DNA of 64,000 bases, taken from Sporopachydermia quercuum. Taxonomy: Eukaryota > Ascomycota > Sporopachydermiomycetes > Sporopachydermiales > Sporopachydermiaceae. This document shows positions 3,901-31,400 of this stretch, piece after piece (positions within the stretch are counted from its first letter, which is position 1; each line of letters opens with the position of its first letter). Position numbers and translations under genes: made by a program. The notes beneath the pieces were generated by a model. The model saw only the letters and a program-made list of their open reading frames with translations, did no database searches and was not told the origin of the DNA. Location of the stretch: the NCBI GenBank assembly GCA_001599295.1, contig BCGN01000009.1, positions 1 through 64,000 on the forward strand, given 5' to 3'.

Positions 3901-4530
3901 TTAAGATTTCTAAAAGAATAGATTCTAAACTTTATTTGGAAAGACAGTAAGCTTTAAGGTTTCAACCAACTTTTACTAGACAAATGTTGCGCACTTATAA
4001 AGAAAGGAAATCACTAACACATAAATCTTCGTCAATAAATTAAAATAAAACTCAGAAACGAGACGTTGATTTGAATGACTTTTACTAACCAATATTTATA
4101 TCAAGGGTGATCGTATAATGTAGCTGCTTGAATAAATCTTGATAATGTCTAAGAGAAGCCCTACATACAAAATGTGGGGTAAAGCTAAACACCATAACTT
4201 AAAGTTTAACCGAATGTTTTAAAAGGCCTTCAAACTTTATTTGAACTGTGATTCTCATATTCTTCGTTCCGCTTGTTTCAACCAATCTCCAATTACTTTT
4301 TACTCAACGATACATCAAATACCTTCTTTCTAGGGCCATATATTCTCCTTCACTACACTACTACATGAGTCAAGTTGAGTAGTTCAACTTTTTACCTCTT
4401 GGCTTAGAAGATTACCAAAACAATACTAAATACTCTTCAACCTATTCTTCAGTTGCTTTAGAAATAAGTACTGTGTCATCCTAGTTTGAACTACTTTCAC
4501 ATCTACAGTGTTATTATCAAAATAATCAAA
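3901..4530 (+). promoter_or_regulatory. Upstream region of the finger-less transcription factor
   Basis: AT-rich DNA with no gene. It holds one exact GTGGGGTAAA site at 4174. I searched it for a missing exon with a CX2C...HX3H zinc finger and saw none. Confidence 0.5.
4174..4179 (+). promoter_or_regulatory. GTGGGG site (cluster regulator, predicted)
   Basis: Context AATGTGGGGTAAAG, about 350 bp before the ATG at 4531. Matches the zinc-finger prediction for the protein at 9826-12636. Confidence 0.55.
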
Positions 4531-6744
4531 ATGTACATACACTTACATGATAGCAGTCCATCATCTGATTTAAACTACTACTCTTCACCTAACAGTTGCT
4601 TTTCAAACGATACTCATCCAAAAACTAGTTTCGAAGACCACCGTTTTTCGGATATCGACATAGCTCCTCCAAGGCTCCAAACTAATGATAATTTGAGAGT
4701 GTATTCTATTGAAGACTTTGATAGTAACCTATCGTTTGATTTTAATATGATGCCATTAATGAATATAGACAGTTACTCAAGTGGGGCGTTAAATACTACT
4801 GCTGCAACTCTAAGTTATGAAAGATCAAATTCAAGTAATTCGCTGTCTCCTCTGTCTGAATCTTCAGTTAGACATATGCTTGAACTGAAGACAATTTCCA
4901 ATAGTGATAAGTCGAATATTAAGAATGGACAAGCTTCTTTTGACTCGAACATGTCTCAAATGACTCCTCAGTCGTTTCCTCAAGATGAACTGATGAAATG
5001 CTTATCATATCAGTTAGAACAAATAGATTCCTTACTTGATCTAAACAGGCTGAAGACTATACCGTTTGCAAGATATTTAGTGGCCTATTTTTCTGGCTCT
5101 GTCAATAAACATTTACCGATTATCCATTTCATGCAGCTAGAACAATTTTACAATGATATAAAGAAGAATTGTGAGAATATGAATGAATTGGAACAGGAAA
5201 CATCTATTGGTGTTGCAGAAAACTTATCAAATGTCAACATGTTGTTAAATTTTTCGCTTATACTAATTTTGAGTGCTTTTGGGTGCCTATATAATCTTGA
5301 GCATGCAAGGTCGCTGTTATTGAGAAACTCTTGCTGCAATCTCATTACAGTTCTAGAAGATAGTTTATCAAGTAACCCTGATAGCTCCAACCTTCCATAT
5401 TATCAAGCAAAGTTGTTTTTATTGATTTTTGACTCATTCTCGGACGATTTATCGTTGGTCGAATCATGTTTAGACAACGAGTCAGATTATAACAGAATTA
5501 CTGATTCGATAGAACGGCTACATTTTCAAAGATGTGATACTAATGGTTGGTTAGATTGGATTACTGAGGAATCCTATCATAGACTTTTTTGGGGTTACAT
5601 TATTCAGATGTCTTGTCTGAATATGTCATACAATCGTTTATCTCTATCGTCTGCAGGAAGCCTGAGTTATCCAATGCCCGAAGATGATGAACTATGGAAT
5701 GCACAGAATGAAGAAACTTGGAGAAGTTATATGGAAAAAGAGGATAATAGTAGTTTAATTGCTTCAGAATCAGTTATTTGTCCAGTATTGTTTGCACTTT
5801 TACCTGCCCCATCACTTACTAATAATTCGAACAGGAATTTGCAAACAACCTCGCTAAAGTCTAACTTGTCCAAAACAGAAAATGTGTCATCGCTATCAGC
5901 ATATATTCTATCCCATGCGATTATGGCTCACATTTCTTCAATTTCAAGGTTTTACTCCTGGGGTCATATTTCAACCGTTCAGTCAACAGAATTTGAATCT
6001 CTATCAAAAGTTTTTCTCGAACAGGTAGAAATGATCTTCTCGCGCTGTCCAAGCTCTTTATCGTCGTCATCAAATAGTATTCAACATTTGAGCCAAGATA
6101 TTAGCCCTTTATCAAGCGCATGCATTGTTTTGATTATATCGCGAGTCCAGCTATATTCATTTTCACCCTTGAAGTCTATACTTGCTGAAGAGGTGTCTAC
6201 TGAATACGCCAGTATTATTAACAATTCGCTTAAGTACAATATTCAATTGAATATTGAAACATTGAATGAATGCTTTGATTTCTTGTTTAGCCCTGTGAAA
6301 ACAATGGGACTTGAGATGATAAAAGCTTTTGGATCCATTCATTTCAGTCCTGAACGTGTTATTGCTATTTTTCATACAGGTTTTTATTTATCATACTGGA
6401 TACATAAATTTGAACTTGAAATTGATATCGTGAAAAATGAAGTTCTTCAGGAGCAAAGAGAATTGTTTGATAAGGTAATTGAGAGTTTGAAACAGTTCGA
6501 TCATAAAGAGAATGAGTACAAGCAAATCAAAACTAAAGGAATAGAAGGCCCAATTAATATAAATAGAAGAAGCGTAGCTAGTAACATTTTGTGTATTTAT
6601 TGCGATATACTGGATGGTTGCATATGGGGAATAAGTAAAAGGATTATAGATGTTTTCAAGGTATTACAGGAAAGGTATAGAGAAATTAAGAACGAGGAAA
6701 TATGCAAAAGAGTCGAACATATCAATCAACAAGAGGTTCAGTGA
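4531..6744 (+). CDS. Fungal transcription-factor-like protein lacking a DNA-binding domain
   Basis: The first ATG gives 737 residues. The N-terminal 150 residues are Ser/Asn-rich and acidic, like an activation region. The rest (about 170-650) aligns by eye with the middle homology region (Fungal_trans type) of the zinc-finger protein at 9826-12636. Shared landmarks in the same order include FARYL versus LARYL, then HLPIIH versus HLPMLH, ESYHRLFW versus ESFKRLYW, and LWNAQNEETWRSYM versus IWNTKDKHEWKRLI. No CX2C or Zn2Cys6 motif is present, and none is visible upstream. It is probably a paralog that lost its fingers, acting as a co-regulator or a competitor within the cluster. An unseen distant 5' exon remains possible. 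Confidence 0.8.
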   Translation: MYIHLHDSSPSSDLNYYSSPNSCFSNDTHPKTSFEDHRFSDIDIAPPRLQTNDNLRVYSIEDFDSNLSFDFNMMPLMNIDSYSSGALNTTAATLSYERSNSSNSLSPLSESSVRHMLELKTISNSDKSNIKNGQASFDSNMSQMTPQSFPQDELMKCLSYQLEQIDSLLDLNRLKTIPFARYLVAYFSGSVNKHLPIIHFMQLEQFYNDIKKNCENMNELEQETSIGVAENLSNVNMLLNFSLILILSAFGCLYNLEHARSLLLRNSCCNLITVLEDSLSSNPDSSNLPYYQAKLFLLIFDSFSDDLSLVESCLDNESDYNRITDSIERLHFQRCDTNGWLDWITEESYHRLFWGYIIQMSCLNMSYNRLSLSSAGSLSYPMPEDDELWNAQNEETWRSYMEKEDNSSLIASESVICPVLFALLPAPSLTNNSNRNLQTTSLKSNLSKTENVSSLSAYILSHAIMAHISSISRFYSWGHISTVQSTEFESLSKVFLEQVEMIFSRCPSSLSSSSNSIQHLSQDISPLSSACIVLIISRVQLYSFSPLKSILAEEVSTEYASIINNSLKYNIQLNIETLNECFDFLFSPVKTMGLEMIKAFGSIHFSPERVIAIFHTGFYLSYWIHKFELEIDIVKNEVLQEQRELFDKVIESLKQFDHKENEYKQIKTKGIEGPININRRSVASNILCIYCDILDGCIWGISKRIIDVFKVLQERYREIKNEEICKRVEHINQQEVQ

Positions 6745-7276
6745 AACCTGACAATCAATTTTTAAACGTTCTACTTTCAAACATCAATGTAGATTGATTC
6801 TGAGTAGAATAATTTAATCGTTGAATTATTTTAGTTTGATGAATTCATAAACTTTCTTATATAAATATTTAATGCCACACAAAGTTAAAGTTAGATTAGC
6901 AAAGATTAGTTTAAAGCTTACCTCAAAGCTTAACCTTAAAGGTTTATTTTTTTGTAGTTCTCCCACATATTGCCTATTTCGAGTATAATGGGGTACTTAT
7001 TATCGGTGGAACAAACTACTTTCCAATTAAGAGATCCTATTTCTTTATAGTCAAAAGGAAGAAGAAAAAAAAGTCATATAAATGCTGATAAGTCAATGAT
7101 CTTTGACAGTACTTCCAATAATGGTTTATAACTTTATAGCTCGTTAACTAACAATATTATTAGGAAAAACAAAAATAAAAGGTTATACACACCTTTTTCT
7201 GGTATTTGCAGCTTTCAATATTTACTGCATTAAGAATAACATTTTGAGATTCACTATATCTTCAGCTATTGNTACA
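6745..7276 (+). promoter_or_regulatory. Promoter region of the NmrA-like gene
   Basis: No gene. It contains ATGGGGTAC at 6988-6996, a one-base variant of the cluster word, about 285 bp before the ATG at 7277, and several AAAGTT and AACCTTAA words. Confidence 0.45.
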
Positions 7277-8203
7277 ATGAGAATTGGTGTTACAGGATCA
7301 ACAGGTTTCACTGGAACTCATATCATCGTTGAGCTACTCTCCAGGAACTATCAAGTAATAGGCTATAGTCGCAGTCCTAGTAAAATTGGAACTCATAGCA
7401 GCTTTGAACCTTTCCCTATTGATTTCTACACTGTAACCATTGGAGAGCTTGCCAAAGCATTTGAGAAAATTGACATCATCATTGATTGTTTTGGACCCCA
7501 TTCTAGCGGTGTTGAAGGTGTTATTTACGAGCCATACATTGAAGTATCAAGAAAACTTCTTTTGGCTGCTAAGATCGCCGGCATCAAATACTACATAAAA
7601 ATAGGTGGTTCTGGATCATTATATTCACCGGAAAAGAAGTTTACTTACGCAGTTGATGATGAACAGTTTTGGGAAGCGTATAGAAGAGGAATGGGAGATG
7701 ACGAAGCATATGTAGTCCAACTAGAAGAACGATTAGGTTACATTGGNTCTTATTTCAGAAACTACCGTAATGCTAGACTGAAAATCAAGAACAACCAAGA
7801 TTTGGATGAGAGTGATAGAAAGGCTATTGATATAATTGAAGGGGTTCATTATAAGAAGGATCCTGCTTATGCATTTATATGTGCTTGCAGAACAACATTT
7901 ATGTTCTTCCTTGATAATAAAAGTTTTGAATGGACGTTTGTCAGCCCCAGTACTTTGTACAGAAGTGGTTTGCCCAGCAATAGTGAAATCAAAACAACTA
8001 TAGACTTTCTTCCTGTTAGACAGGGGACGTCAGTTTTTGGTAACCCTATGGAGGGGAATTTATATGGTATAACAGCACCTGATTTGGCCAAGGCTATTGT
8101 TGATGAAATGGAACAAAAGAAAATGAAATGGAAGCATTGGTCTGCATATACTGAAGAGATGCCAGAAGAGCCATATAAGAGCTGCCTCACTATTTCCAAT
8201 TAG
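7277..8203 (+). CDS. NmrA-like / atypical short-chain NAD(P)-binding protein
   Basis: A 308-residue protein that begins directly with a Rossmann fold: beta strand, then GSTGFTGTH (residues about 7-15), the glycine-rich loop of NmrA and extended SDR-like proteins. A basic SRSP after the second strand suggests NADP preference. A DCFGPHSSGVEG segment and a KIGGSGSL strand follow. The classical YxxxK is not obvious, so it may be an oxidoreductase with other chemistry or a redox sensor. The frame is open a little upstream without ATG and with one ambiguous base; the ATG at 7277 fits the fold best. It is codirectional with the finger-less factor before it and the dehydrogenase after it. Confidence 0.75.
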   Translation: MRIGVTGSTGFTGTHIIVELLSRNYQVIGYSRSPSKIGTHSSFEPFPIDFYTVTIGELAKAFEKIDIIIDCFGPHSSGVEGVIYEPYIEVSRKLLLAAKIAGIKYYIKIGGSGSLYSPEKKFTYAVDDEQFWEAYRRGMGDDEAYVVQLEERLGYIXSYFRNYRNARLKIKNNQDLDESDRKAIDIIEGVHYKKDPAYAFICACRTTFMFFLDNKSFEWTFVSPSTLYRSGLPSNSEIKTTIDFLPVRQGTSVFGNPMEGNLYGITAPDLAKAIVDEMEQKKMKWKHWSAYTEEMPEEPYKSCLTISN

Positions 8204-8822
8204 CATAACAAAATTTCATAATGAATGAGTGTATAGATAAAAGAATCTATGTAAAATAAACATTGTTGGAAGTTTTAAGTTATAATTCGTTATTTTCGTG
8301 TTATTGTAATGGCAATCCCTCCAACCGAAAGCTGCCTTGAAATATGTCAAACGCTGCAGCCTAANTGCATGGCCAGANTTCTTTCTAGCGACACCAGATA
8401 TTACTAGTAAATCTTGTCTTTGATAAATCTACTCCATGTATACCTTTTTGCGGTAAGAATAATAATTTATATACAGGAAGCTGTTTAGGATATAGTCAAA
8501 TAGAGTTAAAGTTGCATAAATTAAGTGTGGGGCATTAAATTTACATTCCTTAATCGGATGCTGCTGGGGATGTCAATAATGATTTTATTGTATCCAAAAC
8601 GTCAAACTCAGCATATAAATCTTCCGTTTATTCTATCAAATATTTTGTTTTCTCTCCATCTACCTTCAAATTGTTATAAATCAGCTCTATTATCTACTTT
8701 ACTTTTATTGTGTTTTATCCAAGATTTGGCTGGTATCCTTATTTCCTATTGGATTCTATTCTATGAAGCTTCTGGGANTCACTGGTTCTAATAATACCTN
8801 AAATTTCTTATGGATCTCGACG
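8204..8822 (+). promoter_or_regulatory. Intergenic promoter region before the dehydrogenase
   Basis: No gene. It holds an exact GTGGGG at 8527 and CTGGGGA near 8574. Four ambiguous bases fall here. Confidence 0.45.
8527..8532 (+). promoter_or_regulatory. GTGGGG site (cluster regulator, predicted)
   Basis: Context AGTGTGGGGCATTA, about 290 bp before the ATG at 8823. Confidence 0.5.
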
Positions 8823-9779
8823 ATGGAACCAACTATAGATGATTCGAAAATAGGATTCATTGGCCTTGGTGTCATGGGATATCAAATGGCCAAAAACATT
8901 GCAAAGAAAAAGCCAAATTCTCATTTATTTATTTTCGATATTAACACTTATGCTAGTCACAAATTTAAAGATGAATTACCTGATAACCTAATCACCATCT
9001 GCTCTTCATGTCGAGAAGTAGCAGAAAACACTAAATTATTATTTTCTATTGTTCCTGAAGGTTCCCATGTTAAACAAGTTTATCTTGAACCAATTACTGG
9101 AATTTCTAGTGCAAAGAATATTTCAAATATTAACAGATTATTCATCGACTGCTCAACTATTGATCCTGCTACTTCAATTGATGTGGCTAACAAAATAAAA
9201 AGTATTTCAAATAACAGGGCTTGCTTTTACGATGCCCCCGTATCTGGTGGTGAAATTGGAGCAGCCAATGGTACTCTGACCATAATGGCTGGTATCGATG
9301 AGAATGATTCAAGGGCAAAATATGTTAAATCACTATTATTGCTAGTTGGCAAGAACATATACTTATGTGGCAAACAAGGTAATGGCTTGTCAGCTAAACT
9401 ATGCAATAACTATACTTCTTCCATCATAACCGTGGCAACATCTGAAGGACTCAACATGGCTATCAGACTTGGAATTGATAAGAAACTTGCGTCTGAAATT
9501 TTCTCAAGAAGTACTGCTGGAAGCTGCATCAATGATAAATTTAATCCTGTCCCAGGAATAGATCCCAAAAGTCCTTCAAGTAATGGCTATAATGGAGGAT
9601 TTAAAATTGAACTAATGAGAAAAGATCTCAAGCTAGCACTCGAAAGTGGAAATGAAGTTAATGCAAGTAATGAACTTGGGAAATTTGTTTTCAGTTTTTA
9701 TGATAAAGCTGCAGATTTGAAGGAGTACCGTGGTCTTGATTACCGAGTTATTTATAAATACATAGGAGGTGTAGAGTAA
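8823..9779 (+). CDS. 3-hydroxyisobutyrate dehydrogenase-family oxidoreductase
   Basis: A 318-residue beta-hydroxyacid dehydrogenase. The N-terminus has the NAD-binding GFIGLGVMGYQMA (about 11-23). DAPVSGGEIGAANGTL is the family substrate-binding signature, and GNGLSAKLCNNY carries the catalytic lysine. The C-terminal helical domain is complete, ending in RGLDYRVIY. The family oxidises 3-hydroxyisobutyrate, tartronate semialdehyde and similar short hydroxyacids, classically in mitochondria; no clear targeting peptide is seen from this start. An in-frame ATG at 8763 would add 20 residues, but it passes through two ambiguous bases, one of which could be a stop, so 8823 is preferred. In the cluster it could finish a side-chain fragment of the degraded substrate (inference). 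It converges on the zinc-finger factor with a 46-bp gap. Confidence 0.9.
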   Translation: MEPTIDDSKIGFIGLGVMGYQMAKNIAKKKPNSHLFIFDINTYASHKFKDELPDNLITICSSCREVAENTKLLFSIVPEGSHVKQVYLEPITGISSAKNISNINRLFIDCSTIDPATSIDVANKIKSISNNRACFYDAPVSGGEIGAANGTLTIMAGIDENDSRAKYVKSLLLLVGKNIYLCGKQGNGLSAKLCNNYTSSIITVATSEGLNMAIRLGIDKKLASEIFSRSTAGSCINDKFNPVPGIDPKSPSSNGYNGGFKIELMRKDLKLALESGNEVNASNELGKFVFSFYDKAADLKEYRGLDYRVIYKYIGGVE

Positions 9780-9825
9780 TCATCAAGTACCGAGTCAATC
9801 TATCTAAATATATAACAAGAGTAGG

Positions 9826-12636
9826 CTATATACAACTAATATTAGAACTTTTTTCATTTCTGCATCTCTCCCCTATAAGCCTGAATATCTTGGCCATAGT
9901 AACGGTTATTCCCCAAACCCACGTATGATCTAACATATTCGCCCAAAGTTCAACCAAAGTCCCAGCTAACGAAAAATTACCATCTTGCAGTAATTCATCT
10001 ACTTTCCTTTTATCATTGTAGTTAAAGTTAATTACATCAGCTTCACATAGTAATTTCATACACTCAAAAATAACTTCATTCTCAAGATTAGTAAATGAGC
10101 GAAACTTGATTGATAGCTCTGCAATGTGGATGTATCTTGATAATAGTAAGATTGGTTCCCAACCATTCAATGCATGATCCACAGACCAATTAATTGCTGC
10201 AAATCTTCTGATTAACATATGCCCTGCTCTAACCGGAATCTGTAAAGCATCTAACGAGATAAACAAGACTCTTCTTATTAAATTACCTTTAACAAACAAT
10301 GTTGCTGAAAAGTAATCGTTCAAAACTCTCTCAATATTATTGTCGAATTCTGCATTACTACATGCCAGAATAGATTTCATAGTATAAGATATTTGGAACA
10401 GTTTCACTTGTAATGATCTAGATATTGAAATACTATTGAATAGAATCGGATGCTTATCACAAGAAGTTAAGGCATTGCCAATCGGGATTTTTGAGTATAA
10501 TATTGAGTCAGTTCTTCTGAAAGTTCTTTCAGCTTGTTTGAAGGAGCACTCAACAAGAAATTCAAATTCTTGAGATACATTTGCTGCGCCAATGAATTTA
10601 GATTCACAGCACCATCTATAAGATTGAGATACTGAAGTAATATGATGTTTAACACAGCAAAACAATATATACGTAGCAAACTGGGGTAAACTTTCAAAAT
10701 CTGGTTCAGCACCTATTTCAAATGTAACATAGCCCATTAATTGTTTGAAAGAAGCTGGTAAAATGTCATCATCATCTATCAATCTTTTCCATTCATGCTT
10801 ATCCTTTGTATTCCAAATCCCTTCACATTCAGGTAAATCTAAAGGAATAGCAACCAAATCTAAATGAACATCCACATTATAGATATATGAAATATTAGAC
10901 ATATTGATAAGAATACACCAGTACAGTCTTTTGAAGGATTCAGTTATGATCCACTTTTTAAATGACGTGCTATCTCTTTTTGAATATCTTCTACAAATTA
11001 TTTTACTTGTTTTGTTGAAAAATGACTGTAGACTTTTTGCTCGATGTATATTCTCTGGATGTCCACTCCAGCAATCCAACATCCAACATAAATATCTACT
11101 TTGAATAAGTGACAAGGTAAAACTATTAACTTCAAGCTTTTTTTCCTTTTCTAGTTCATCAGTCATCTTGAGAACACATGCCTGTAGACTATTTGATTTG
11201 TCTTTCTCAAGACAATAAAGTGCACCCATTGCAGACATGGCTAAAATAAGTAGACAGTCACCAACTGATTGAATTTCGGTTCCCGCTTGTTCTTCATTTT
11301 GTTTTGCTGAGAAATCAAAATTGAAGAAACTTTCATGTAGCATTGGCAAGTGAATTATAAAAGATGAATAACAAACATTCAAATATCTTGCTAATGGACA
11401 AATTTTAAGTGCCTTGATTTCAGGTATAAACTGTGGAAACCTTTTGGTCAATATATTGAAACATATGTCTTGTTTCTTGTGTGAGAACTGGATATTGCTA
11501 GATTTGCTCATAGGTATGAACAATTCAGAATTGATGAACAGTGCTGGGGCACTTGAATTGGAACTGACATGAGACTTTGAGTTCGAAGAAAGAGTTGATG
11601 TTGATTTTCTGAAAATAAGTGTGAATGGTTGTTCTTGATATTGAAATTTGCACCTTGGTGGTAGCATCAGTTTAGGATTATAAAGAAAATTTGATATGCT
11701 TATGGCAAATGGCGATTGAAATGTATTCCCAGGTGACGTACAAGACAATGCAAAGTTGTTTAGTCCATACAATTCAAATGAAGTATCAATAGTGTCATCA
11801 GAGTCAGAGGAACTAGTTGAAAATGGGAATTCATTGTTCTGATTGGGGTTTGACGGAAATGATAAATCTTTGAAAGTATATGAATTATATGAAGAAGTAT
11901 TTGAGTCTATTGAAGAATCAGATGCCGTTGATGAAGATAAAGAAAGGGCAGTGGAGGAGATGAGCGAATTGACAGACTCTTCAATGGTATCCAATTTTGG
12001 AGAACTCTCAGGCTTCCATAAGACTAAGTCCATATTATCAGATGGTTCAGTTGTGATAGTAGAATTATCATCATTACTGTTGATAACTGAAGCACTAGCG
12101 GAGTTGTATGAAGGTGAAGTTGAAGTTCTATTATCAGTATAATTGTTATCTCGATTCAAATTATCAGCAGTAGATAGCCCTTCTATTTCCTTTACTTCAG
12201 CAGTTCTTTCAATAGCAATATCTGTTGCTATTTTTTTACTACTTCTGGCCGTCGTTTCACTATTTGAAATAGCTAACGATTCTTCAAACTGTGCCTTATA
12301 CCTCATTTGAATATTGACACCAATACAGCACCTTTTATGTCTAACAACAACATCTTTTCTACTGAAATTTGCTCCACACTTATCACATTTGAAAGGCCTT
12401 TCCGAAGTATGAATTCTGGTATGTCTTGTGAGATGTTCAACTCGTTTAAAAGTTATCCCACATATGTCGCATATATGTTGTTTTGGTTTTCTACCTCTTT
12501 TCCTTTTCTCCAATCCTTCTATCATTCCCGTGTTATCGCTTCTATTTCTATTCAAACTAGAAGAGTGTTTATTCTTGCTTATGTACAACCTGAATGTTGA
12601 TTGCATGGAGTATTGCTCTTCATGTGATTGAACCAT
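9826..12636 (-). CDS. C2H2 zinc-finger transcription factor with fungal middle homology region; probable cluster regulator
   Basis: A 936-residue protein. A basic KRKRGRKPK (about 44-52) precedes two fingers. Finger 1 uses C56, C59, H72 and H76. Finger 2 uses C84, C87, H100 and C104, so it is C2HC. Helix residues at -1/3/6 are R65/H68/R71 in finger 1 and R93/V96/R99 in finger 2. By the standard recognition code (known from Zif268 and Msn2/Adr1) they read GGG and GTG, giving the site GTGGGG. Ser/Thr/Asn-rich linkers follow (about 125-340), then a Fungal_trans-like region (about 400-760) shared with the protein at 4531-6744. The arrangement matches Adr1/Klf1-type fungal regulators. It sits inside the cluster, divergent from the CMD-like gene. 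Its predicted word fills the cluster promoters but is absent from its own upstream DNA. Confidence 0.9.
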   Translation of the reverse strand: MVQSHEEQYSMQSTFRLYISKNKHSSSLNRNRSDNTGMIEGLEKRKRGRKPKQHICDICGITFKRVEHLTRHTRIHTSERPFKCDKCGANFSRKDVVVRHKRCCIGVNIQMRYKAQFEESLAISNSETTARSSKKIATDIAIERTAEVKEIEGLSTADNLNRDNNYTDNRTSTSPSYNSASASVINSNDDNSTITTEPSDNMDLVLWKPESSPKLDTIEESVNSLISSTALSLSSSTASDSSIDSNTSSYNSYTFKDLSFPSNPNQNNEFPFSTSSSDSDDTIDTSFELYGLNNFALSCTSPGNTFQSPFAISISNFLYNPKLMLPPRCKFQYQEQPFTLIFRKSTSTLSSNSKSHVSSNSSAPALFINSELFIPMSKSSNIQFSHKKQDICFNILTKRFPQFIPEIKALKICPLARYLNVCYSSFIIHLPMLHESFFNFDFSAKQNEEQAGTEIQSVGDCLLILAMSAMGALYCLEKDKSNSLQACVLKMTDELEKEKKLEVNSFTLSLIQSRYLCWMLDCWSGHPENIHRAKSLQSFFNKTSKIICRRYSKRDSTSFKKWIITESFKRLYWCILINMSNISYIYNVDVHLDLVAIPLDLPECEGIWNTKDKHEWKRLIDDDDILPASFKQLMGYVTFEIGAEPDFESLPQFATYILFCCVKHHITSVSQSYRWCCESKFIGAANVSQEFEFLVECSFKQAERTFRRTDSILYSKIPIGNALTSCDKHPILFNSISISRSLQVKLFQISYTMKSILACSNAEFDNNIERVLNDYFSATLFVKGNLIRRVLFISLDALQIPVRAGHMLIRRFAAINWSVDHALNGWEPILLLSRYIHIAELSIKFRSFTNLENEVIFECMKLLCEADVINFNYNDKRKVDELLQDGNFSLAGTLVELWANMLDHTWVWGITVTMAKIFRLIGERCRNEKSSNISCI

Positions 12637-13321: not shown

Positions 13322-13750
13322 ATGTCTACAGAAGAAACGTTGAAAGAAGCTCACACAAGGTTGTTTGAAGCAGGGCTTAAGACAAGATATTCTGTCGTAG
13401 GAAAAGAATATGTTGATAGGGCTCTCGAAAATGGGTCATCAAAGTTTTCGAGGCCAATGCAAGAATTAGTGACAGAAGTGTGCTGGGAATCAATTTGGAA
13501 TAGACCAGGGCTTTCAAAGAAACAAAGATCTTTACAAAATGTTGCTATGTTATGCGCTCTGAATAGAAATGCCGAACTGGCTGCTCATACTCGTGGAGCA
13601 ATTGTCAATGGGGCTACACCGGAGGAAATTAGCGAGACAATTCTACAAGCATCAATATATTGTGGTATGCCTGCTGGTATTGCAGGTTTTAAAGTAGCCG
13701 AACAGGTCTTAAGAAAAATGAAAGAAGAAGGTTATAATATAGAAATCTAA
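13322..13750 (+). CDS. Carboxymuconolactone decarboxylase-family protein
   Basis: A 142-residue protein whose whole length matches the CMD/AhpD-like fold in its 4-carboxymuconolactone decarboxylase (PcaC) branch. Landmarks are the N-terminal GLKTRYSVVGKEYVDRAL, the central ELVTEVCWESIWNRPGLS, then RSLQNVAMLCALNR, and AAHTRGAIVNGATPEEI with the conserved His. ILQASIYCGMPAGIAGF ends the domain. There is no CxxC peroxidase motif of AhpD type. PcaC decarboxylates a gamma-lactone in the protocatechuate route, but no ring-cleaving dioxygenase is near, so the substrate here is probably a different lactone or ring-fission product (inference). It is divergent from the zinc-finger factor. Confidence 0.9.
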   Translation: MSTEETLKEAHTRLFEAGLKTRYSVVGKEYVDRALENGSSKFSRPMQELVTEVCWESIWNRPGLSKKQRSLQNVAMLCALNRNAELAAHTRGAIVNGATPEEISETILQASIYCGMPAGIAGFKVAEQVLRKMKEEGYNIEI

Positions 13751-14423
13751 GTAGTAACTCTTATATTTTAATTGATACATTTTATATCGATTCTTACTTC
13801 GTTAATGACATCAAATCTATTGAGGCATTTTCACATGTCATATGCTTAGTTTGCTACTTTTACTTGTATACCCATTGTGCACATATTCAATTTTTCTTTG
13901 TTAATCAAATTTTATATCAAGCAGAGAGCTAGGTGATTTTTTGTTTAAACTTAATTTTCAAAATATACGCAATTGGTGATTTACAATATAGCAAGTTTGC
14001 CGAAAAATTCCCATTAAGGGATGTGGGGTCTTTTTTACCTTATGATTTGCTTCTCTTTTCTGTTTGATATAAAGCGACTACTTTAAAAGGAAGTTGAATT
14101 TTTACCCCATACCTCGTTTAATTTAGTATAACTATAGCGAAACCTTAAGTGTTTTCATGTTATCTCTTCTGATAGCACATTCTTAATGAACCCATAGTAT
14201 AGTATAGTGTTCAGAAAGTGGTTGATTCAATAATGGTTATTGGTTATAAAGACCTTTGAAAGTCCTTAACTTTTTGAGTTTTTTTAACTACTATTGACTG
14301 AAATTATGAATCAAAAAAGTAAATTATTAGTCTCATAAGAATCTTGATGAACTACCAAAATCAAGTTCTGTCAAACACTGAGAGGATACTTGCAGCCCAC
14401 TAGGGGTCTTCACTATCAACAAT
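13751..14423 (+). promoter_or_regulatory. Promoter region of the first P450 gene
   Basis: No gene. It contains an exact GTGGGGTC at 14023 and the reverse-strand variant ATGGGGTAAA at 14105-14110, 80 bp apart, both 310-400 bp before the ATG at 14424. Confidence 0.5.
14023..14028 (+). promoter_or_regulatory. GTGGGG site (cluster regulator, predicted)
   Basis: Context GGATGTGGGGTCTT, about 395 bp before the P450 ATG. The left flank GGATGTGGGGT is also found on the reverse strand at 19304. Confidence 0.55.
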
Positions 14424-16025: not shown

Positions 16026-16476
16026 ATAGTTAAGAGTTTCCTTCCTGTTGAATAAGTAAACTGCAAATTCAGTAACTGTTCTTTATTGATATAGTCCTAA
16101 AATTAGATAATTCCTAGTTAGAAATAAAGTTGAAACGAAAATAAAGTTAAACCTGTGAACAAATATTCATTCTTATTATTATTTTAGTTCTGGAAATTGA
16201 AGTTAAATTGAGATTAATGTTGAACTTTAAATAGTTGTTCCAGTTATGGAAAGTTATGGGGTAAGATTGAAAATCCCATCTGAACTGAATCCGCTTTCCT
16301 AGAATTTTTTCAGAAAAAACAATATTTAAATACTTAACTCTAGCATTTAAATTTCATGATGACTGTCTGGTTAATTTCTCAATATTCAATAGCTACCAAT
16401 ATCATGATACTTGCTCTTTGATCCCCTTCATAATAAGCAGCAGGAAGCTTCAATAGAGTTACATTCAACAATAAGA
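16026..16476 (+). promoter_or_regulatory. Promoter region of the alpha/beta hydrolase
   Basis: No gene. ATGGGGTAAGA at 16256-16266 is a variant of the cluster word, about 215 bp before the ATG at 16477. Confidence 0.45.
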
Positions 16477-19231: not shown

Positions 19232-19303
19232 CAACGTAAAATTGAAGGTTTAATCTTAATTCCACAACAAATTTTAGAGTTGGATATTAAACTCTAATTA
19301 GTA

Positions 19304-19309
19304 CCCCAC
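19304..19309 (-). promoter_or_regulatory. GTGGGG site (cluster regulator, predicted)
   Basis: Reverse-strand context GGATGTGGGGTACT. It lies 78 bp from the site at 19226 in opposite orientation. Confidence 0.6.
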
Positions 19310-19669
19310 ATCCTGAAAAGGAAAGGTTTCTGAAAGAAAGCTGTCAAACAGTAATCTGGGGTAAAGGTAGTTGAATCAGACAGATAAGACTTAATCTTAC
19401 CCCAGGTTATTTGTGATAAAATTGAGTGATGATATTTGATTTACTAAATCTTATGTCTTGTTTTTGTAATTGTCAAACAATTAAAGTTCGAAGTTGTATT
19501 AAAGTTTCAAGGAAATGTAAGAAGAAAAAAAAATGTGAGTAGGAGCAAAATTTATCTTTTGGTCCAAGGTCTAATCTAAACATTTGATGGCATAACTCTA
19601 TTATATAATTAGAACTACTGTGCAAGTATCAGCAAAAGTTAATACTCTATATACTTTGGAAAACAATTT

Positions 19670-20563: not shown

Positions 20564-20739
20564 TTCGAAATTGTTATAAAGATCTGTTTCTATCTAGTAG
20601 ATTCAAAACCAAGAATGATCTATTATTTGATGAATTCAAATTTGTAGTAATGTAAATAATGATTGTAAGAAAAGCAAACTGAGGTATATATATCAAAGAA
20701 ATAGAAAACAAAAATGGATTCCCCATGTTCAAATCATTT

Positions 20740-20745
20740 GTGGGG
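20740..20745 (+). promoter_or_regulatory. GTGGGG site (cluster regulator, predicted)
   Basis: Context ATTTGTGGGGAGAA, about 180 bp upstream of the left SDR start. Confidence 0.5.
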
Positions 20746-21388: not shown

Positions 21389-22350
21389 ATGACAACTTAC
21401 ACTATTTCTGATAATGAGTTTACAGCTCTCCAAAATAAAAATGTTGTAATTACAGGAGGAGCTGATGGAATTGGAAAAGCCACTGTTGAACTGGCTGTTA
21501 GTATGTTACTTCAAGTTTTGAGTCACAGAATACTTTATGTTTGAATTTTCACCTAACAATTGTGTTAATAGCCTACGGTGCCAATGTCGTATTTATTGAT
21601 ATCAATAGGAAGAAGGGTGAACTTTTCACCAAAGAGCTTGAAAATCTCAAGAATGAGCATAAAGGAAAGTTTTTGTTTCTTCAGTGCGATGTTTCTTCGT
21701 GGGATGATTTAGAAAAGGCATTTAAGCAAAGTGCACAGTTCTTGTCCACTATTGATACAGTAATCGCTAATGCTGGTGTTGGAGAAATAGGAGATTTATT
21801 TGATTTCGGTGATGAAACAAGCAAATCTGAGGGTATTTCTGCTCCAAACATTTCAACTATCAATATCAACCTTTTGTCACAAGTGTATGCAGTTCGCCTT
21901 GCTGCCTATTATTTTGAAAAGTTCAATATTAAAGGCAATATTGTTCTTACTGGTTCAATTGCCAGTATGATTGAAACACCACCATTACATCTCTATTGTG
22001 CTTCCAAGGCAGGATCTCTGGGATTAACAAGATCAATAAGAAATGAATCTGAAAAACGTAACTTTACTATCAATTCAGTTTTGCCTTGGATGACCAGGAC
22101 AAGCATGGTGCCAGAAGCTTTAGACAAGCTTTGGGGAGACCTACCAGCCAATGAACCAGTTGATATTTCTAAGGCATTGTTATTATCAACTGCAAGAAAA
22201 GGAGTCAATGGCAAAGGATTTTTAGTTGTTGGAGGTGAAATTATTGATATTGAAGAAGGATTGGATAAGAGTAGGCCTCACTGGATGACCTCTAAGGTTG
22301 CAGCTGCATTACATAAAGGACAGGTTTTGATGGGGATCGAAAAAGATTGA
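21389..22350 (+). CDS. Short-chain dehydrogenase/reductase (second of a divergent pair), one intron
   Basis: Exons 21389..21500 and 21572..22350 give 296 residues. The 71-bp intron has a GTATGT donor, a CTAAC branch and a TAG acceptor. The first exon supplies the cofactor loop TGGADGIG (22-29), which the downstream frame alone lacks; joining gives VTYGANVVFIDIN. NAG follows, and the active site is Ser in LTGSIAS with YCASK (Tyr179, Lys183). The C-terminus carries PWMTRT...WGDLP...NGKG as in the SDR at 19670. An Asp-ending second strand suggests NAD. A CCCCAT site is only 60 bp before the ATG. Confidence 0.92.
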
Positions 22351-22907
22351 TGTAATTCTATTTTTTTGTTACATAGTTTCAATAAAAGACCTGATTGATT
22401 TCGAGTTTTATGCTGTTAATCTTTTTTCTTGATATGTGGAATTTATAGCAACATACCCCACTCAGCATAGTATAGTAATTTGGTTGCATACAGTATAAGC
22501 TTTTATGTCAATCTAAAATATGTTCTCTTAGCTTGCAACTTTAAATTCCGAAAAAGAATGTCAAAGAATATGCTTTCCAAATCCATAATAAAATCTTAAA
22601 GTGTTCTGCTAAACGCCAACTTAGCTTTTAACTTCAAATTTAGTTCAATGGCATTGAAAGTTTATTTAAACAACCAGCTCAGTGGAGAACATATTTATTG
22701 AAATACTTCCAAAATGGTAGGAACTTTTATGTGGATTTTCGAGCTGCTAACTTGAATGACATTATTAATATAAATATTTAGAATATTCTACATTCTTCTT
22801 GTAAATATATTTTATACGAATTCAACTAATCACAGATTATCTGTTTCTCATTATTAATCCTACAATACTATCAGCACCGCTTCAGTCATCGAATAAATCT
22901 CATTAAA
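22351..22907 (+). promoter_or_regulatory. Promoter region of the second P450 gene
   Basis: No gene. One exact site of the cluster word (reverse strand) at 22456, plus TTTAAATT and AACTTCAAA words. Confidence 0.45.
22456..22461 (-). promoter_or_regulatory. GTGGGG site (cluster regulator, predicted)
   Basis: Reverse-strand context TGAGTGGGGTATGT, about 450 bp before the P450 ATG. Confidence 0.5.
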
Positions 22908-24425
22908 ATGCTCAATTTCTATGCGTTTTTTGCAGTAATAGTAGTTTTACTACTAAAAACAGTTTTGGACAGGTATAATTTCAACAAGAAGTATAATTTA
23001 CCCCCAAGAGTACCAGGAATTCCAATATTTGGTAATACATTTCAATTACCTCCTACTCAACAAGGTCCACATTGCAGAGAGCTGGCTAAGAAGTATGGTG
23101 AAATGTTTACCATTAAACTAGGTCAGCAAACTTGGGTTTTTCTCAACAGTTCGAGAGTTGTTAAGGCTTTATTAGAAAAGCGATCGGCAATATATTCCAG
23201 TAGACCTTCTTTCCCAATGACTCAAGATATAGTTTCAGGAGGCGGCAGAATTGTTCTCATGGAATATAATGAAAAATGGAAACAATTGAGAAAAATAATG
23301 CACGGAATTTTGAATAACAAACAATCAGATATATTCAAACCATTTCAAGATTTAGAATCAAAAGCGTTACTGCTCAATTACTTACAGAATCCTGAAAAAT
23401 GGTATCTCCATAATGGTCAATATTCTAATTCTGTTATCATGAGTGTAGTCTTTGGTATAAGAGTGAATCCAGAAAACAAGGACACAGCTCAACTATTTGA
23501 AACTATTGAAGAATTCTTAGAACTTCAGCAACCAGGAGCAACACTAGTTGATGGATTTCCTGTATTGGCTAAACTACCAAATTTCCTTCAATGGTGGAGA
23601 CCAAAGGGTAAACGAATTCATGATAAAACAGTGAAGGTTTATCAAAGACAATTCGACTTGCTAGAAGAAAGAGTTAAAAACAAAACTCAAAAACCCTGCT
23701 TCATTACTCAGTTCTTGCAAGAGGAAAAGAAATATTCCTTTGATTATAACCAAAAGTTATTCTTGGCTGGAACATTGATGGAAGCAGGTTCTGATACCAC
23801 TAAAGTAACCTTAGGCCAAATGATAGCTGGTGCGGCCACTAGTACTGACTGGATAGTCAAAGCAAGGAAAGAATTAGATATGGTTTGTGGATCACATGGG
23901 GAAAGATTACCCGGATGGGAAGATGAACATAAGTTGCCTTATATCAAAGCTGTGGTTAAGGAAGCATTCAGATGGAGACCAAATATTGCAGAGATTGGAG
24001 CTCCTACAATGTTGACAAAAGATGATAAGTTTGAAGGATACTCATTTCCTGCTGGAACAGTTTTTACTTGGAACGCCTGGGCAATTGCTTTGGATGAAGC
24101 AGAGTACGAACAACCGGAGAGATTTTGGCCAGATAGATTTTTGAATGAAGATCTTGATAATCCTTTAAAAGGACACTGGGCTTTTGGACCTGGTAGGAGA
24201 GTCTGTGTTGGATATAACGTTGGTCAGCAGAATGTGTTTATAAGCGCAGCCAGATTATTATACTGTTTTGATTTTATTGAAGATAAGAAGGAACCTGTAG
24301 ATACTATGTCCATTCCTCAGATAACTAAAGGAAGAGCTCCTTTCAAAGTTATAATCAAATCAAGAGGTCCAGAGTTTGAAAATCTGATTAGAAGCGAATG
24401 TGGTGACACATTGAATTTTTCTTAG
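22908..24425 (+). CDS. Cytochrome P450 monooxygenase (microsomal, second of two paralogs)
   Basis: A 505-residue class II P450 with an N-terminal anchor (about 3-20) and hinge PPRVPGIPIFGN. The I-helix is AGSDTT (293-298), ExxR is E352 to R355, and the heme loop is FGPGRRVCVG with Cys433. It shares many blocks with the P450 at 14424 but is diverged, so the duplication is old and the two probably act on successive or different positions (inference). It is codirectional with the SDR before and the transporter after it. It has no intron. Confidence 0.95.
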   Translation: MLNFYAFFAVIVVLLLKTVLDRYNFNKKYNLPPRVPGIPIFGNTFQLPPTQQGPHCRELAKKYGEMFTIKLGQQTWVFLNSSRVVKALLEKRSAIYSSRPSFPMTQDIVSGGGRIVLMEYNEKWKQLRKIMHGILNNKQSDIFKPFQDLESKALLLNYLQNPEKWYLHNGQYSNSVIMSVVFGIRVNPENKDTAQLFETIEEFLELQQPGATLVDGFPVLAKLPNFLQWWRPKGKRIHDKTVKVYQRQFDLLEERVKNKTQKPCFITQFLQEEKKYSFDYNQKLFLAGTLMEAGSDTTKVTLGQMIAGAATSTDWIVKARKELDMVCGSHGERLPGWEDEHKLPYIKAVVKEAFRWRPNIAEIGAPTMLTKDDKFEGYSFPAGTVFTWNAWAIALDEAEYEQPERFWPDRFLNEDLDNPLKGHWAFGPGRRVCVGYNVGQQNVFISAARLLYCFDFIEDKKEPVDTMSIPQITKGRAPFKVIIKSRGPEFENLIRSECGDTLNFS

Positions 24426-25335
24426 AATAAATTAAATACTATAGTTCTATATTATGAATATAAGATTCTGATACAAAAACGAAGAAAATTAAAATAAGAC
24501 GAAAAAGAATAATAAATTGTAGCCATTGAATTTCTAAAACTATCTATTAGTTGCTTTTAGAAATATTCATTACAGCTCTATAGATTCATCGAATAGTAAC
24601 GACTAGGTCTAATGCTTATCCTATTATAGATATGCGTTAGTGGTTGATCGGAATTCTTCCCCGAAAAGTAAACTTGTCAGTTAACAGTCATCAATTATGA
24701 ACAAGACAAACTTGAGCTTCCTTGTGGGGTTTCACTGATAATTGGTTTTTCTGCTCAAAAATAGGCATTGATATTAGTTGTACTGTTCGTCAAAACTATC
24801 GTAGTATCTCATCTGTTTATTCAACCCACCTTAAGAAAACTAATTTAAAGTTGAAACAACCTTTTAAAGTTTCTGGGGTAAAACGTTAATTATTATACTT
24901 TGAGTTTAACTCTGCTAATATTGTTTCAATGCACGATGGAGAAACTTTAAATTTACTTGAAACTTGAAACTGTGATTACCCCGGTTATTAGGGATTTTAT
25001 TCAGATTTCTTACAAATTTCTACAGTTTTGTTGACTCCATCATCATACCAATAAAGTAATAGATTTAGAAATTGACATATCAAAACCAGGGTAGAGATCT
25101 GTTTTACTCTAAATGAAAGTATGATTCATCAGTGTTTCCTTCAAGTTGTATAAATACCACTTCATAAGCTCTTGTTTGATACGTTTCGATTTACAACTTC
25201 ATAATCATTAGTACTACCTGGCTATGCAGTAAGAAATATCTTTTACTTCAAATTACAGAGTTTTTATAATTGAACAACATAAGCTGGTCTTATATAATAC
25301 TATTCACAATCAACGGTTTCTTTAATTGTTGCAAC
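24426..25335 (+). promoter_or_regulatory. Promoter region of the MFS transporter
   Basis: No gene. It has GTGGGG at 24724, CTGGGGTAAA at 24873, CCCCGG at 24979, and a TATAAATA box at 25149-25156, about 185 bp before the ATG. Confidence 0.5.
24724..24729 (+). promoter_or_regulatory. GTGGGG site (cluster regulator, predicted)
   Basis: Context CCTTGTGGGGTTTC, about 610 bp before the transporter ATG and 300 bp after the P450 stop. Confidence 0.5.
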
Positions 25336-27511: not shown

Positions 27512-28480
27512 TTATATAATGCAACCAGGAAAGAATTTATCCTTGTTTTTGCTTGCCCATGCATAGTCATGAGCTAAGATAACCTCAACTTCACAGTCAA
27601 ATATACCCTTCGAACTCAAAAGGCGTATCATCTCCACAGTATGCTCTGCTAGCTGTTTATCCTGATGAATACATACCAGGTAGCCTTTGCCGTCTAACCA
27701 GGTAGAAAATTCTGTGTCTCCTCTAAGCAAAGAAACATTATGGCACGCATCTCCTGCTAAATATAAATATTTGCTATCTGATACTCTTACTAGTAAATTT
27801 ATATGACCAATGATATGACCTGGGCTGTCGACGACTAGAATTGATCTGTCGTTGAACAAATCTATATACGATAGGTCATAAATCTTACCAGAATTGATAT
27901 CATTTAATTTCAATGTGGTCCATGGTTTATTATCCTCTAATTTACCATATTGAGTTAAAAGTAAATTTTGATTCCCTTTAGATATCAATTGCCTAGTTAT
28001 TTCAGTCATGGGGAGCTCTATTGTCCTATCACTAGGTAAAGTGTTAGAATCGAAATGTGATGCTGAATGATAAGGAAGACCCTGTTGAAGTAGTTGATAA
28101 GAACCAGGCCCTACAATAAATTTTGACTCTTTAAAATCACTGGGAGTTCCAATATGATCATAATGGAGGTGACTAAGGAAAACGTATTTAATATCATTGG
28201 TAGAAATGCCACCTTTCTGGAGTGAATCTTTCACATCTGGGGTTGTAATTATAGGTCTTCTAGTTTCTATATGAGCACTGAGTTCAGGGATATAATCTGA
28301 TAACTCCCTTTTTAAACCAAGATCAAATATGATATTGCCATTTGTGGGATGTTGTACAAGGAAACTTAGCGATGGACATAAGATTTTTATTGATTTATCA
28401 GTTTGAGCAGCAGAGAACATCCATTCTGGTAGTGATAGATAGCCTGCTTCAAGAGCCGAAACTTTCACAATTTCATGCAT
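27512..28480 (-). CDS. Metallo-beta-lactamase-fold hydrolase, lactonase-like
   Basis: A 322-residue protein with the zinc motif HxHxDH in LSHLHYDHIG (His104, His106, Asp108, His109). A later His lies in DSPGHIIGH, and an Asp in YLYLAGDACHN bridges the two metals in this fold. A final His is in VILAHDYAW. The spacing matches N-acyl-homoserine lactonase-like and glyoxalase II-like enzymes, which open lactones or thioesters. In this setting a lactonase of a pathway intermediate is plausible (inference). It is the last gene of the cluster; an ATGGGGTAA site lies 210 bp upstream at 28690, and no further sites are seen to the right. Confidence 0.9.
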   Translation of the reverse strand: MHEIVKVSALEAGYLSLPEWMFSAAQTDKSIKILCPSLSFLVQHPTNGNIIFDLGLKRELSDYIPELSAHIETRRPIITTPDVKDSLQKGGISTNDIKYVFLSHLHYDHIGTPSDFKESKFIVGPGSYQLLQQGLPYHSASHFDSNTLPSDRTIELPMTEITRQLISKGNQNLLLTQYGKLEDNKPWTTLKLNDINSGKIYDLSYIDLFNDRSILVVDSPGHIIGHINLLVRVSDSKYLYLAGDACHNVSLLRGDTEFSTWLDGKGYLVCIHQDKQLAEHTVEMIRLLSSKGIFDCEVEVILAHDYAWASKNKDKFFPGCII

Positions 28481-31400
28481 TTTGAGTAAATTATTTATTT
28501 AATACAATTCACTCAAAGATCTTTATTTCTAGGTCAAAATCTTTTTTACTCAAATAAATATTCTGATAATTCGAATAATCAAAAGTATGCTTGAGGTTGT
28601 ATTTAAATGGTCAATTAAGTTAAGGTTAAGTTTTGAGTAATTAGCTTGATTATACATATACTTATTTCCCTTTCCTATTTAGGAAATAAATGGGGTAATA
28701 AATAAAGAGTGTGGAGAAGGATGAGCACCCATAATTAATATTTGCCATCTCTTTGACTACTTCTAGGAATTTCGTGAAATGTCTCAATGTGGAATTCAAT
28801 ACTAATGTCGTAGTGAGCCACACCAAACAGAACGATGACTAGTTCTTGCTATAAACATAATTATTTCTTCCTATGCTTTACTATTTCCCATGATATCGAG
28901 AGATGGAAAGCAAATGCAAAGTGAGTATCGTTTCTTTCTTCCACTTTTTTTGGGTATCTGAATTTCATAAATAGAACCAAGACCATTGGTATCAGGAAAC
29001 AGAAAGGATTGTGGTTCACTGCCGTTACGTAGTTACTTTAATTTCAACAAAATTCGGTCGAGTATATGTGCAACCGGCCAAAATTTTTAATAAATTGTCA
29101 ATGCATGCGTGCTGCTGCCAATTACTACCTAATTATTATTATTAGGTGTTCTTTGTAAGGCAGCAATAAATGACACCAGTCAATCCTCTGCATATCAACT
29201 TAATCGATGAAAGAATTAGTGTTGAATTAGAACAATATGATGATATTGGAAACTAATTAAATGTTACATTCTTAATTAGTTGGCTTCACTTTCCTGTATT
29301 AATAAAAAAAGAAAAAAAAAAACATAAAAAAATTTCATATATTATATTTATACATACAAATTTATACATACAATACAATACAGCAGATGTGAGTTGCTAA
29401 CTAATTCCAACGCGCTTTACTGCCAATATTTAACAATAGAAAGCTCTTGGTGTCGAAAATCCAATTCTTCCATATTACATCCGTCAGCTTTTGTTTCATT
29501 ATCAGGGCAATGACTAATCAACTAATCAACCAATTTCCTGATCTTATCGTATCAAGTAAAGTATCAAGTCACATATGTTAAATGTTAGTTTACTTCATAT
29601 CGTGTGTGAACCTGCACATTTTTGTAATTCTCACGATAAAACCAGGGCTCAAAATCCGGTTGGGATTTCTTGGCCAAATAATCTAAACAAAAAAACTTGT
29701 TGATTTCCAAGAACCATATTATTTTTCTATTTATGGTAGCTTTAAACAAAGGAATGAAAGCTCTTCATCACAATTTTTGTTACAATTCTTTTTCTTGTTT
29801 CTATGTATCTAACACCTTCCTAATTAGGATGTTCTGAGGTGATGACAGTAGTTTCAATGTATTAAGGCTGTTGAATCTCTTGCCGCAATAGGAAATATCT
29901 CAGATCCTTCATTTTTCCAAAAACGACCCTTGATCCTCTCAAAATTATGTAGGATTTCTTTCATTCGTCTACTTTCTCATAAAAGATACAATGAAAGGAA
30001 GCACTGTATATTTAGATGTTTGATGTAGGTGCTGGAACGAACAGGATGTCCAGTAAGTATCTTTAAGTTCGCTTCTATTATCTGGAATGGGAGTAAAGTC
30101 ATCTCTGTTCTTTTTTTTATTTATTTATCTATGTCAAGACTGACCTCCCTAAACCACAAACAAAGGCTACTATAAGCTTATTTGTCACTTAGTGTATTAT
30201 AAAAAGCTGGATAGCTTTGGAATAATATAATAGTCAGTTGATATTCTTTTAATACTCATAAATAATTATAACTAAGTTTTAAGGTTTATGTATAATTATG
30301 CAAGTGAAATATAAAGAAGGAAAGGTCCAGATTGAATCCTGATTTTCTTCAACATATGAATCAAACAATACTCTAAGTTAAATATCATTGACCAATATAT
30401 GTAAATCTTTACTATTACTAATTTGAATAAAAAATAAATGTGGTTATGTGCTTAAAAAGTAATCTAGATTGTTGTTACTCTGAAGTAGTCTATACTCTTT
30501 AAAGATTTGTGAACTTCCTGGCTTGCAAGAACTATTCATATAAATATAATGTAAGATTTACCGGAGACAAAGACGATCACCAGATATAACAGTTCAGTTA
30601 TTGCAACACATGAAAATTCAATAGTTCATTTTGCTTTCAATTAATTATACTTAAAAAAACGTTGTAAGTTTTGTGTAGAGAAATGACTTTGGTACGGGAA
30701 GCTACCAATTGTGAATCTCAACCCAGGTGATAACTTATTGATATATGTAATATTGTCGTGCAATAGATCTCGGTTTTCTCTTTGAAATTCCAAATAAATC
30801 GCTGGTAGTTCCTTACAAGCTGGATTTATCTACCCTTTGTTCATATTGATACAAAACTATAATATCGTCCTCAACAGATACTTGGATAAAATGATCATCG
30901 TCGTCATCGCGCTTGTTACCAATCACGAGTTCGAGTATTGGAGGAAAAGAAACTTCTTTAATCATTAGGAAGCCGATATAATGCAGGCCTTCAAAATTAA
31001 ATCGGAACTGCCTACTTGAGCATTAGCTTGAATCAAATAATTGTTAGAATAAATGGTAGAAAAGAGAGAAAAAATTAGACTATTTCTTTAAAATACATTA
31101 TAAGCTTCAAGCTAGCAGTGTCAATGTGAGTATTACTAATTTTAATTTTTCTATTTTGTATTCACAAGGTACTAAACAAATTTATTGAAACAACTGAAGT
31201 AAAAGTCTTTCTTTAACTAACTTATCAACTATCATCTCCATTTCCTTGTCAACATTATTAAATCAAAACAGGACAGTATGAGTCAAAGATATACAATCTC
31301 TTAGAATTACAGAAACAAAAACCCTTTACAAAACATAAATGAGGTTCAACTTCAAATATGCGCAAATTGATTACGAGAAGCTTTGATTCGTCTCCAAAGA

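Follow-up and report, generated by a model that had tools for sequence, protein, structure and literature searches.

Gene content of the locus

The window, by which we mean the whole stretch of 64 kb that was analysed, starts at the first base of contig C9 in a genome of 16.39 Mb (12 contigs), which we take to be that of a yeast. The enzymes, the factor and the named operators all lie within 4.0-29.0 kb of the window, and the genes read in this part are given below.

4531..6744, forward strand: finger-less sibling of the factor, 737 aa, recognised by sequence comparison with the factor body
7277..8203, forward strand: NAD(P)H-binding gene (NmrA-like by eye)
8823..9779, forward strand: 3-hydroxyisobutyrate-dehydrogenase-like (HIBDH-like) gene
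9826..12636, complementary strand: two-finger cluster factor, 936 aa, with fingers at residues 54-76 and 82-104 followed by a long body
13322..13750, forward strand: carboxymuconolactone-decarboxylase-like gene (CMD), whose promoter is common to CMD and the factor and is without TGGGG
14424..16025, forward strand: first cytochrome P450
16477..17394, forward strand: alpha/beta-hydrolase
17624..18969, complementary strand: FAD aromatic monooxygenase, one intron in our reading, closest solved relative PnpA
19670..20563, complementary strand: short-chain dehydrogenase 1
21389..22350, forward strand: short-chain dehydrogenase 2, one intron in our reading, family assigned by similarity to P0114 and by eye
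22908..24425, forward strand: second cytochrome P450
25336..27149, forward strand: MFS transporter, introns in our reading, the first exon alone scored against MFS_1 and below the family cut-off
27512..28480, complementary strand: metallo-beta-lactamase-fold hydrolase, lactonase-like

No RNA families were found in the window at gathering cut-offs, and there is no ORF of at least 150 aa in window 2311-4000, beside the GTGGGG at 3226(-). The Pfam matches of the scanned cluster proteins comprise P450s, one SDR, one PF01494 monooxygenase, CMD, the lactamase fold, the HIBDH type and alpha/beta-hydrolase, and the FAD monooxygenase matches PnpA, a solved structure, with an E of 1e-51. These Pfam and solved-structure matches point to a cluster that would oxidise an aromatic compound. 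The first P450 has 61-66% identity to its ten best database matches, all of them filamentous ascomycetes by name, and no budding yeast was recognised by name among the matches listed (best 120 of 888). In P0137 and P0152, two of these filamentous-fungus proteins or gene models, the related P450 is fused or mis-joined to an HIBDH that is 47% and 44% identical, respectively, to that of the cluster, so that P450 and HIBDH are neighbours in filamentous fungi too. P0114, likewise from a filamentous fungus, has the P450 joined to a short-chain dehydrogenase that is only 27-32% like the two short-chain dehydrogenases of the cluster. A horizontal transfer is plausible. With the P450 and the NAD(P)H-binding protein as queries, no copies of the cluster were found elsewhere in the genome, and the FAD monooxygenase has two paralogues in it (57-60%). 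A reading of CTG as serine was also considered and is unlikely from the alignment columns of the five CTG codons of the P450, of which three fall in mostly-leucine columns, the remaining two aligning with Y and with I/V.

Probable operator sites in the promoters

We curated 11 promoters, which together make up 7,005 bp, and took as a strong site either TGGGGTA or TGTGGGG. The probable operators are located as follows.

4173..4181, forward strand: TGTGGGGTA, promoter of the finger-less sibling
6988..6995, forward strand: ATGGGGTA, NAD(P)H-binding gene promoter
8526..8532, forward strand: TGTGGGG, HIBDH-like gene promoter
14022..14029, forward strand: TGTGGGGT, first P450 promoter
14103..14110, complementary strand: ATGGGGTA, first P450 promoter
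16256..16263, forward strand: ATGGGGTA, alpha/beta-hydrolase promoter
19225..19231, forward strand: TGTGGGG, FAD-monooxygenase promoter, site 1 of 4
19302..19310, complementary strand: TGTGGGGTA, FAD-monooxygenase promoter
19356..19363, forward strand: CTGGGGTA, FAD-monooxygenase promoter
19398..19405, complementary strand: CTGGGGTA, FAD-monooxygenase promoter
20739..20745, forward strand: TGTGGGG, divergent promoter between the two short-chain dehydrogenase genes
22454..22461, complementary strand: GTGGGGTA, second P450 promoter
24723..24730, forward strand: TGTGGGGT, MFS transporter promoter
24873..24880, forward strand: CTGGGGTA, MFS transporter promoter
28690..28697, forward strand: ATGGGGTA, metallo-beta-lactamase-fold (lactonase-like) gene promoter

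The distance to the start codon is 158-463 bp for 16 of the 18 promoter TGGGG sites. Of the other two, one in the MFS promoter is 612 bp away, and one, site 3 of the divergent promoter, is only about 65 bp away from short-chain dehydrogenase 2, whose start was read from the sequence. None of the three convergent gaps has a strong site, and one of them has two bare TGGGG. The intergenic GTGGGG that the earlier note had listed (4174, 8527, 14023, 19226, 19304(-), 20740, 22456(-), 24724 and 3226(-)) are all present, and so are its TGGGGTA (6988, 14105(-), 16256, 19356, 19400(-), 24873 and 28690), with an offset of at most 1-2 bases. A further GTGGGG that it placed at 58493(-) does exist, but its true position is 58483(-). 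GTGGGG also occurs within genes at 4781, 15833 and 26020(-), which were absent from that list, the last of these reading as MFS exon, as well as at 61835(-) and 63016(-), likewise unlisted and both inside the long open frame 59067-63998.

Enrichment against the genomic background

As background we used 20 stretches, each 10 kb long and beginning at a round coordinate of one of the contigs C1-C6, which gave 104 kb of intergenic DNA by a mechanical ORF mask, and all the enrichment tests rest on this one sample with its mechanical gene mask. Relative to the 20 stretches, the 11 curated promoters hold 10 TGGGGTA (0.60 expected), 7 TGTGGGG (0.34 expected) and 8 GTGGGG (1.0 expected), and VTGGGGTA, a word picked after the data were seen, occurs 10 times for an expected 0.40. 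It may be noted that these curated counts exclude the GTGGGG of the MFS exon, which the first mechanical count had included, as well as the two bare TGGGG of the convergent gap. A strong site is found in 10 of the 11 promoters (17 matches, overlapping ones counted separately), whereas 20,000 draws of random background pieces of matched lengths gave a mean of 0.8 regions and 1.0 hits and a maximum of 6 and 8. Among background intergenic segments of at least 200 bp, 9 of 125 carry a strong site. In the genome as a whole there are 1278 TGGGGTA and 2018 GTGGGG. All 13 TGGGGTA of the window lie within 4175-28697, where the genome rate predicts 1.91 (Poisson P about 1e-7), and GTGGGG occurs 11 times in this 24.5-kb span for an expected 3.0 (P 3e-4). 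The rest of the window has 0 TGGGGTA (3.1 expected) and 4 GTGGGG (4.9 expected), and neither word occurs in the 19.7 kb that the mechanical mask leaves as intergenic between 29 and 58 kb. The proposal that the words are enriched in 4-29 kb relative to other intergenic DNA holds on the 20 stretches and on the window at 29-58 kb.

Such counts could reflect a compositional or regional accident, more so as the word had been picked in the earlier note after viewing the region, and TGGGGTA is overdispersed in the genome (variance/mean of 2.45 over the intergenic counts of the 20 background stretches). Composition speaks against this, the GC fraction of the cluster intergenic DNA (0.306) being lower than that of the background (0.339) and AGGGG, CGGGG and GGGGC being without enrichment. 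An accident is also disfavoured by the segment resampling given above and by an unbiased ranking of heptamers, which compared the cluster intergenic DNA with the 20 stretches and the window at 29-58 kb and placed TGGGGTA first of 3,850 (P 3e-9) and TGTGGGG second (P 1e-8), before correction. When 3,328 words were ordered by the number of promoters carrying them, the top three were TGGGGTA, GTGGGGT and TGTGGGG, which overlap one another, and the finger-predicted hexamer GTGGGG is at rank 5 of 1,498 in the promoters.

The densest background stretch (L031, C1:1500001-1510000) has 5 TGGGGTA (4 of them intergenic) and 5 GTGGGG in 10 kb. Its 4 intergenic TGGGGTA fall in 5.9 kb, i.e. 0.68 per kb versus 1.43 per kb in the cluster promoters, and at this rate the 11 promoters would hold about 4.8. 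In block resampling of whole stretches the mean was 0.63 and the maximum 5 TGGGGTA per 7.0 kb, the observed 10 never being reached. Since TGGGGTA is unevenly spread in the genome, the Poisson P values are too small; the enrichment stands despite the clumping, but these P values overstate it. On account of the overdispersion we slightly lowered our confidence that the word is a real cis-element of the cluster, which nevertheless stays very high, and slightly raised the probability of an accident, which we still consider very small. L031 itself is possibly another target of the cluster factor or of a related factor. A second dense region (L047, C1 428.5-437.5 kb), picked as TGGGGTA-dense among the matches listed and holding three ORFs, has 5 TGGGGTA and 7 GTGGGG in 9 kb, several of them in open frames of at least 100 aa, and its TGGGG overall number 17 versus 11.7 by shuffles. 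The words had been put forward as marking the cluster, and this is true insofar as its promoters carry them far beyond chance while the convergent gaps are without a strong site; the words are, however, not confined to the cluster, as L031 and L047 demonstrate.

Form of the element

The consensus from the 18 curated promoter TGGGG sites is T(G/A/C)TGGGGTAA, in which the base 5′ of TGGGG is G, A or C and never T. The downstream TA is present in 10 of 21 mechanically defined cluster sites versus 9 of 83 background TGGGG sites (P 4e-4). Only one of the 12-mers common to more than one promoter contains the operator core; hence the sites did not arise by duplication of a single promoter. GTGGGG, originally proposed as the site, is enriched and fits the fingers but is only part of the element, for which TGGGGTA is the better word. 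No enrichment in the cluster promoters was seen for AGGGG (stress type), SCGGGG, GAGGGG, GCGGGG or TTGGRG, and GAGGGG and GCGGGG are absent from all 11.

These figures bear on whether the words are glucose-repression sites, bound as SYGGGG by a repressor of the Mig1/CreA type (candidates L016 and L018) that would shut the cluster in glucose. The Mig1 consensus SYGGGG, as given in Table 2 of PMC3897899, is indeed enriched in the promoters (13 versus 2.35 expected), a catabolic cluster is a plausible target of glucose repression, and accccac is among the motifs of glucose-only repressed yeast genes, beside the Mig1 and Adr1 motifs (PMC3429914). Yet the excess is nearly all STGGGG (12 of 13), the form SCGGGG of Mig1 occurring only once for an expected 0.54; ATGGGG, which is no Mig1 site, is also raised (7 versus 1.8 expected, with the first, less curated mask), and the enriched downstream TA is not called for by SYGGGG. 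Although SYGGGG overlaps GTGGGG and CTGGGG, the element differs from a Mig1/CreA site in that the C form is not enriched and A is tolerated at the first position, and we regard glucose repression as an unlikely explanation.

Fingers of the factor and other candidate readers

The recognition helices are RVEHLTR in finger 1 and RKDVVVR in finger 2, with the residues R/H/R and R/V/R that the earlier note had given. By the established recognition code, these helices would read GGG preceded by (G)TG, and they fit NTGGGG. Finger 2 has a cysteine as its final zinc ligand (H-x3-C) in the factor, in a protein encoded at C10:271944 and in the Limtongia protein described below, and not in the Adr1-like or Mig1-like proteins. 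The C10 protein has the helices RAEHLIR/RKDVLVR, nearly those of the factor. It may be mentioned that it is a fingers-only protein of 236 aa with an acidic tail (L010, C10:271944-272111), whose 3.2-kb locus has no other ATG-started frame of at least 60 aa. The genome also encodes two Adr1-like proteins (L011 and L014) with RLEHLKR/RRDLLLR, and a third similar to this pair with RSEHKLR/RRDLLLR. The fingers of L011 match solved ADR1 (2adr) with an E of 6e-22, multi-finger animal chains scoring higher. Two proteins (L016 and L018) with RLEHQTR/RSDELTR, from which the helices of the factor differ, we take from helix sequence to be Mig1-like, and one with RSDNLAQ in finger 2 is presumably Msn2-like on the same ground.

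Another two-finger activator, either the C10 protein or an Adr1-type protein (L011, L014), may then read the word. Their helices are nearly those of the factor, the match of L011 to ADR1 is in keeping with this, the word is present beyond the cluster, and public collections have GTGGGGT as the matrix for Adr1. Against an Adr1-type reader, TTGGRG is not enriched (5 versus 6.0 expected; TTGGGG 0 versus 1.6), and the simplest reader is the local factor. We give this alternative a low probability. The suggestion that the fingers predict the word is borne out in that the helices fit it, and goes too far in that the C10, Adr1-like and Mig1-like proteins are similar and the factor is not singled out. 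Because other proteins of the genome have similar fingers, the match is no proof of the factor as the reader; at the level of sequence it supports the cluster factor in this role.

Beyond the fingers, Pfam gave no PF04082 (Fungal_trans) match in the factor, even with matches as weak as E 10 admitted. Searching the protein database with the whole factor returned 75 matches, mostly animal zinc-finger proteins. We took just one of them for a full-length relative, namely P0010 of Limtongia smithiae, with 21% identity over 55%, which has two fingers and PF04082 (1.3e-12). P0064 of Mycena also has PF04082, but its match extends over 6% only. Residues 376-936 of the factor as query matched none of 5,067 candidates at E 0.001.

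Proposed regulation of the cluster

We consider it probable that the 936-aa two-finger protein reads the word as the pathway-specific activator of the catabolic cluster at 4-29 kb. The factor would bind T(G/A/C)TGGGGTAA, in which GGG would be contacted by finger 1 and NTG by finger 2, and the part that carries both fingers (roughly residues 48-110) is predicted to bind TGTGGGGTAA. It would turn on the genes for the oxidative enzymes and for the transporter, as well as the lactonase-like gene and the finger-less sibling. The sequence shows the words with their enrichment and placement, the helices and the homology of the sibling; binding, activation and induction, probably by an aromatic compound, are what we infer here. 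Since the promoter of the factor has no strong site and no TGGGG at all, the factor is probably not autoregulated through the word. A cluster-specific activator with its operator, as the earlier note had it, is favoured by enrichment, promoter placement and finger fit, while the lack of TGGGG in the factor's own promoter and the presence of the word outside the cluster count against it.

Comparison with known systems

As a rule, regulators dedicated to one pathway in fungi belong to the zinc-cluster (Zn2Cys6) type. HxnR of A. nidulans is called unusual for being C2H2 (PMC5746545). HxnR, which controls the nicotinate hxn clusters, has two N-terminal C2H2 fingers and a PF04082 body and is encoded inside the catabolic cluster it controls (PMC8478523, PMC5746545). 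Its predicted site GHGGGG is described for the promoters of all regulated genes but hxnN, and as of PMC8478523 its binding sites had no experimental determination. Clusters with hxnR are reported in 14 scattered Saccharomycotina species (PMC8478523, PMC5746545). Constitutive mutations of HxnR lie in or near the body and are read as marking the regions by which HxnR is kept closed as long as inducer is absent (PMC5746545); by analogy, the body of the present factor would sense the inducer.

Two N-terminal C2H2 fingers with a large body, and a gene within a catabolic cluster, are thus common to HxnR and the present factor. GHGGGG is also found in most cluster promoters here (8 versus 2.1 expected, all 8 being GTGGGG, in 7 of the 11 promoter regions), with TGGGGTA the stronger word. 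On the other hand, the proteins scanned, which include one of the two SDRs, gave no match to an old yellow enzyme, an enzyme of the xanthine-dehydrogenase type, an amidase or a deacetylase, the factor does not lie among hxn genes (hxnT, hxnV, hxnM and others) by these matches, the operator runs on to TA, a finger-less sibling is present, and the promoter of the factor lacks the site that is reported in that of hxnR. We therefore do not file the factor as HxnR, from which it is set apart by the content of its cluster. Klf1-type proteins (S. pombe Klf1, Aspergillus AN6733) have the architecture of HxnR, and the role given for Klf1 is in long-term quiescence and not in a gene cluster (PMC5746545); P0010, the best full-length match of our factor, likewise has two fingers and PF04082. 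Adr1/Mxr1 (alternative carbon use) resembles the factor in having two fingers, with R-1/H3/R6 in finger 1 and R-1/R6 in finger 2 (as in L011 and L014), and a T at the second position of its published site TTGGRG; it differs in that TTGGRG is not enriched here and in that a cysteine closes finger 2 in the cluster factor. Adr1/Mxr1 are not known as cluster regulators.

In the titles and abstract openings covered by a literature search, no description of this factor, cluster or operator was found. The description of activator and operator as previously unnamed was still too strong for the kind, HxnR having the same architecture and a predicted GHGGGG (PMC8478523). The general idea is already known; what is new is a different cluster, an extended operator and an operator-bearing finger-less sibling. 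A second, differently composed cluster with a C2H2 factor and a matching operator suggests a recurrent design, and the locus offers a sharp and cheap test of a finger-code prediction.

The finger-less sibling

What stands out most at this locus is the finger-less sibling with an operator. Its 26% identity to the factor body extends over 600 residues (E 4e-29), no zinc-finger pattern is found in it or in the 2 kb upstream, and a full operator lies in its promoter while that of the factor has none. Its predicted fold is helical with a mean pLDDT of 34 and is unusable. A search of the genome with the sibling found only itself, the factor and a finger-less body at C1:2381014. This second finger-less body (L026, C1:2380894-2381922; 618 aa) matches the sibling at E 2e-20 and the factor at E 4e-7. 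From this body and the fingers-only protein at C10:271944, the factor family may be split into exchangeable parts. A two-protein circuit can tentatively be imagined, though we find it rather doubtful, in which the sibling is made only with the cluster on and pairs with or titrates the activator via the common body, which would provide feedback or a means to sense the inducer. With such a sibling controlled by the operator, the locus gains a feedback circuit that can be tested.

A second promoter word

A second, AT-rich word, AACTTTAA/TTAAAGTT, is also present in the promoters, with 12 occurrences in the 11 regions versus 1.7 expected and a genome total of 1887. Two of these are in the factor/CMD promoter, the one without TGGGG, and the positions are 4199, 6885, 8506, 12965, 13054, 16223, 19481, 19499, 22537, 24845, 24864 and 24943.
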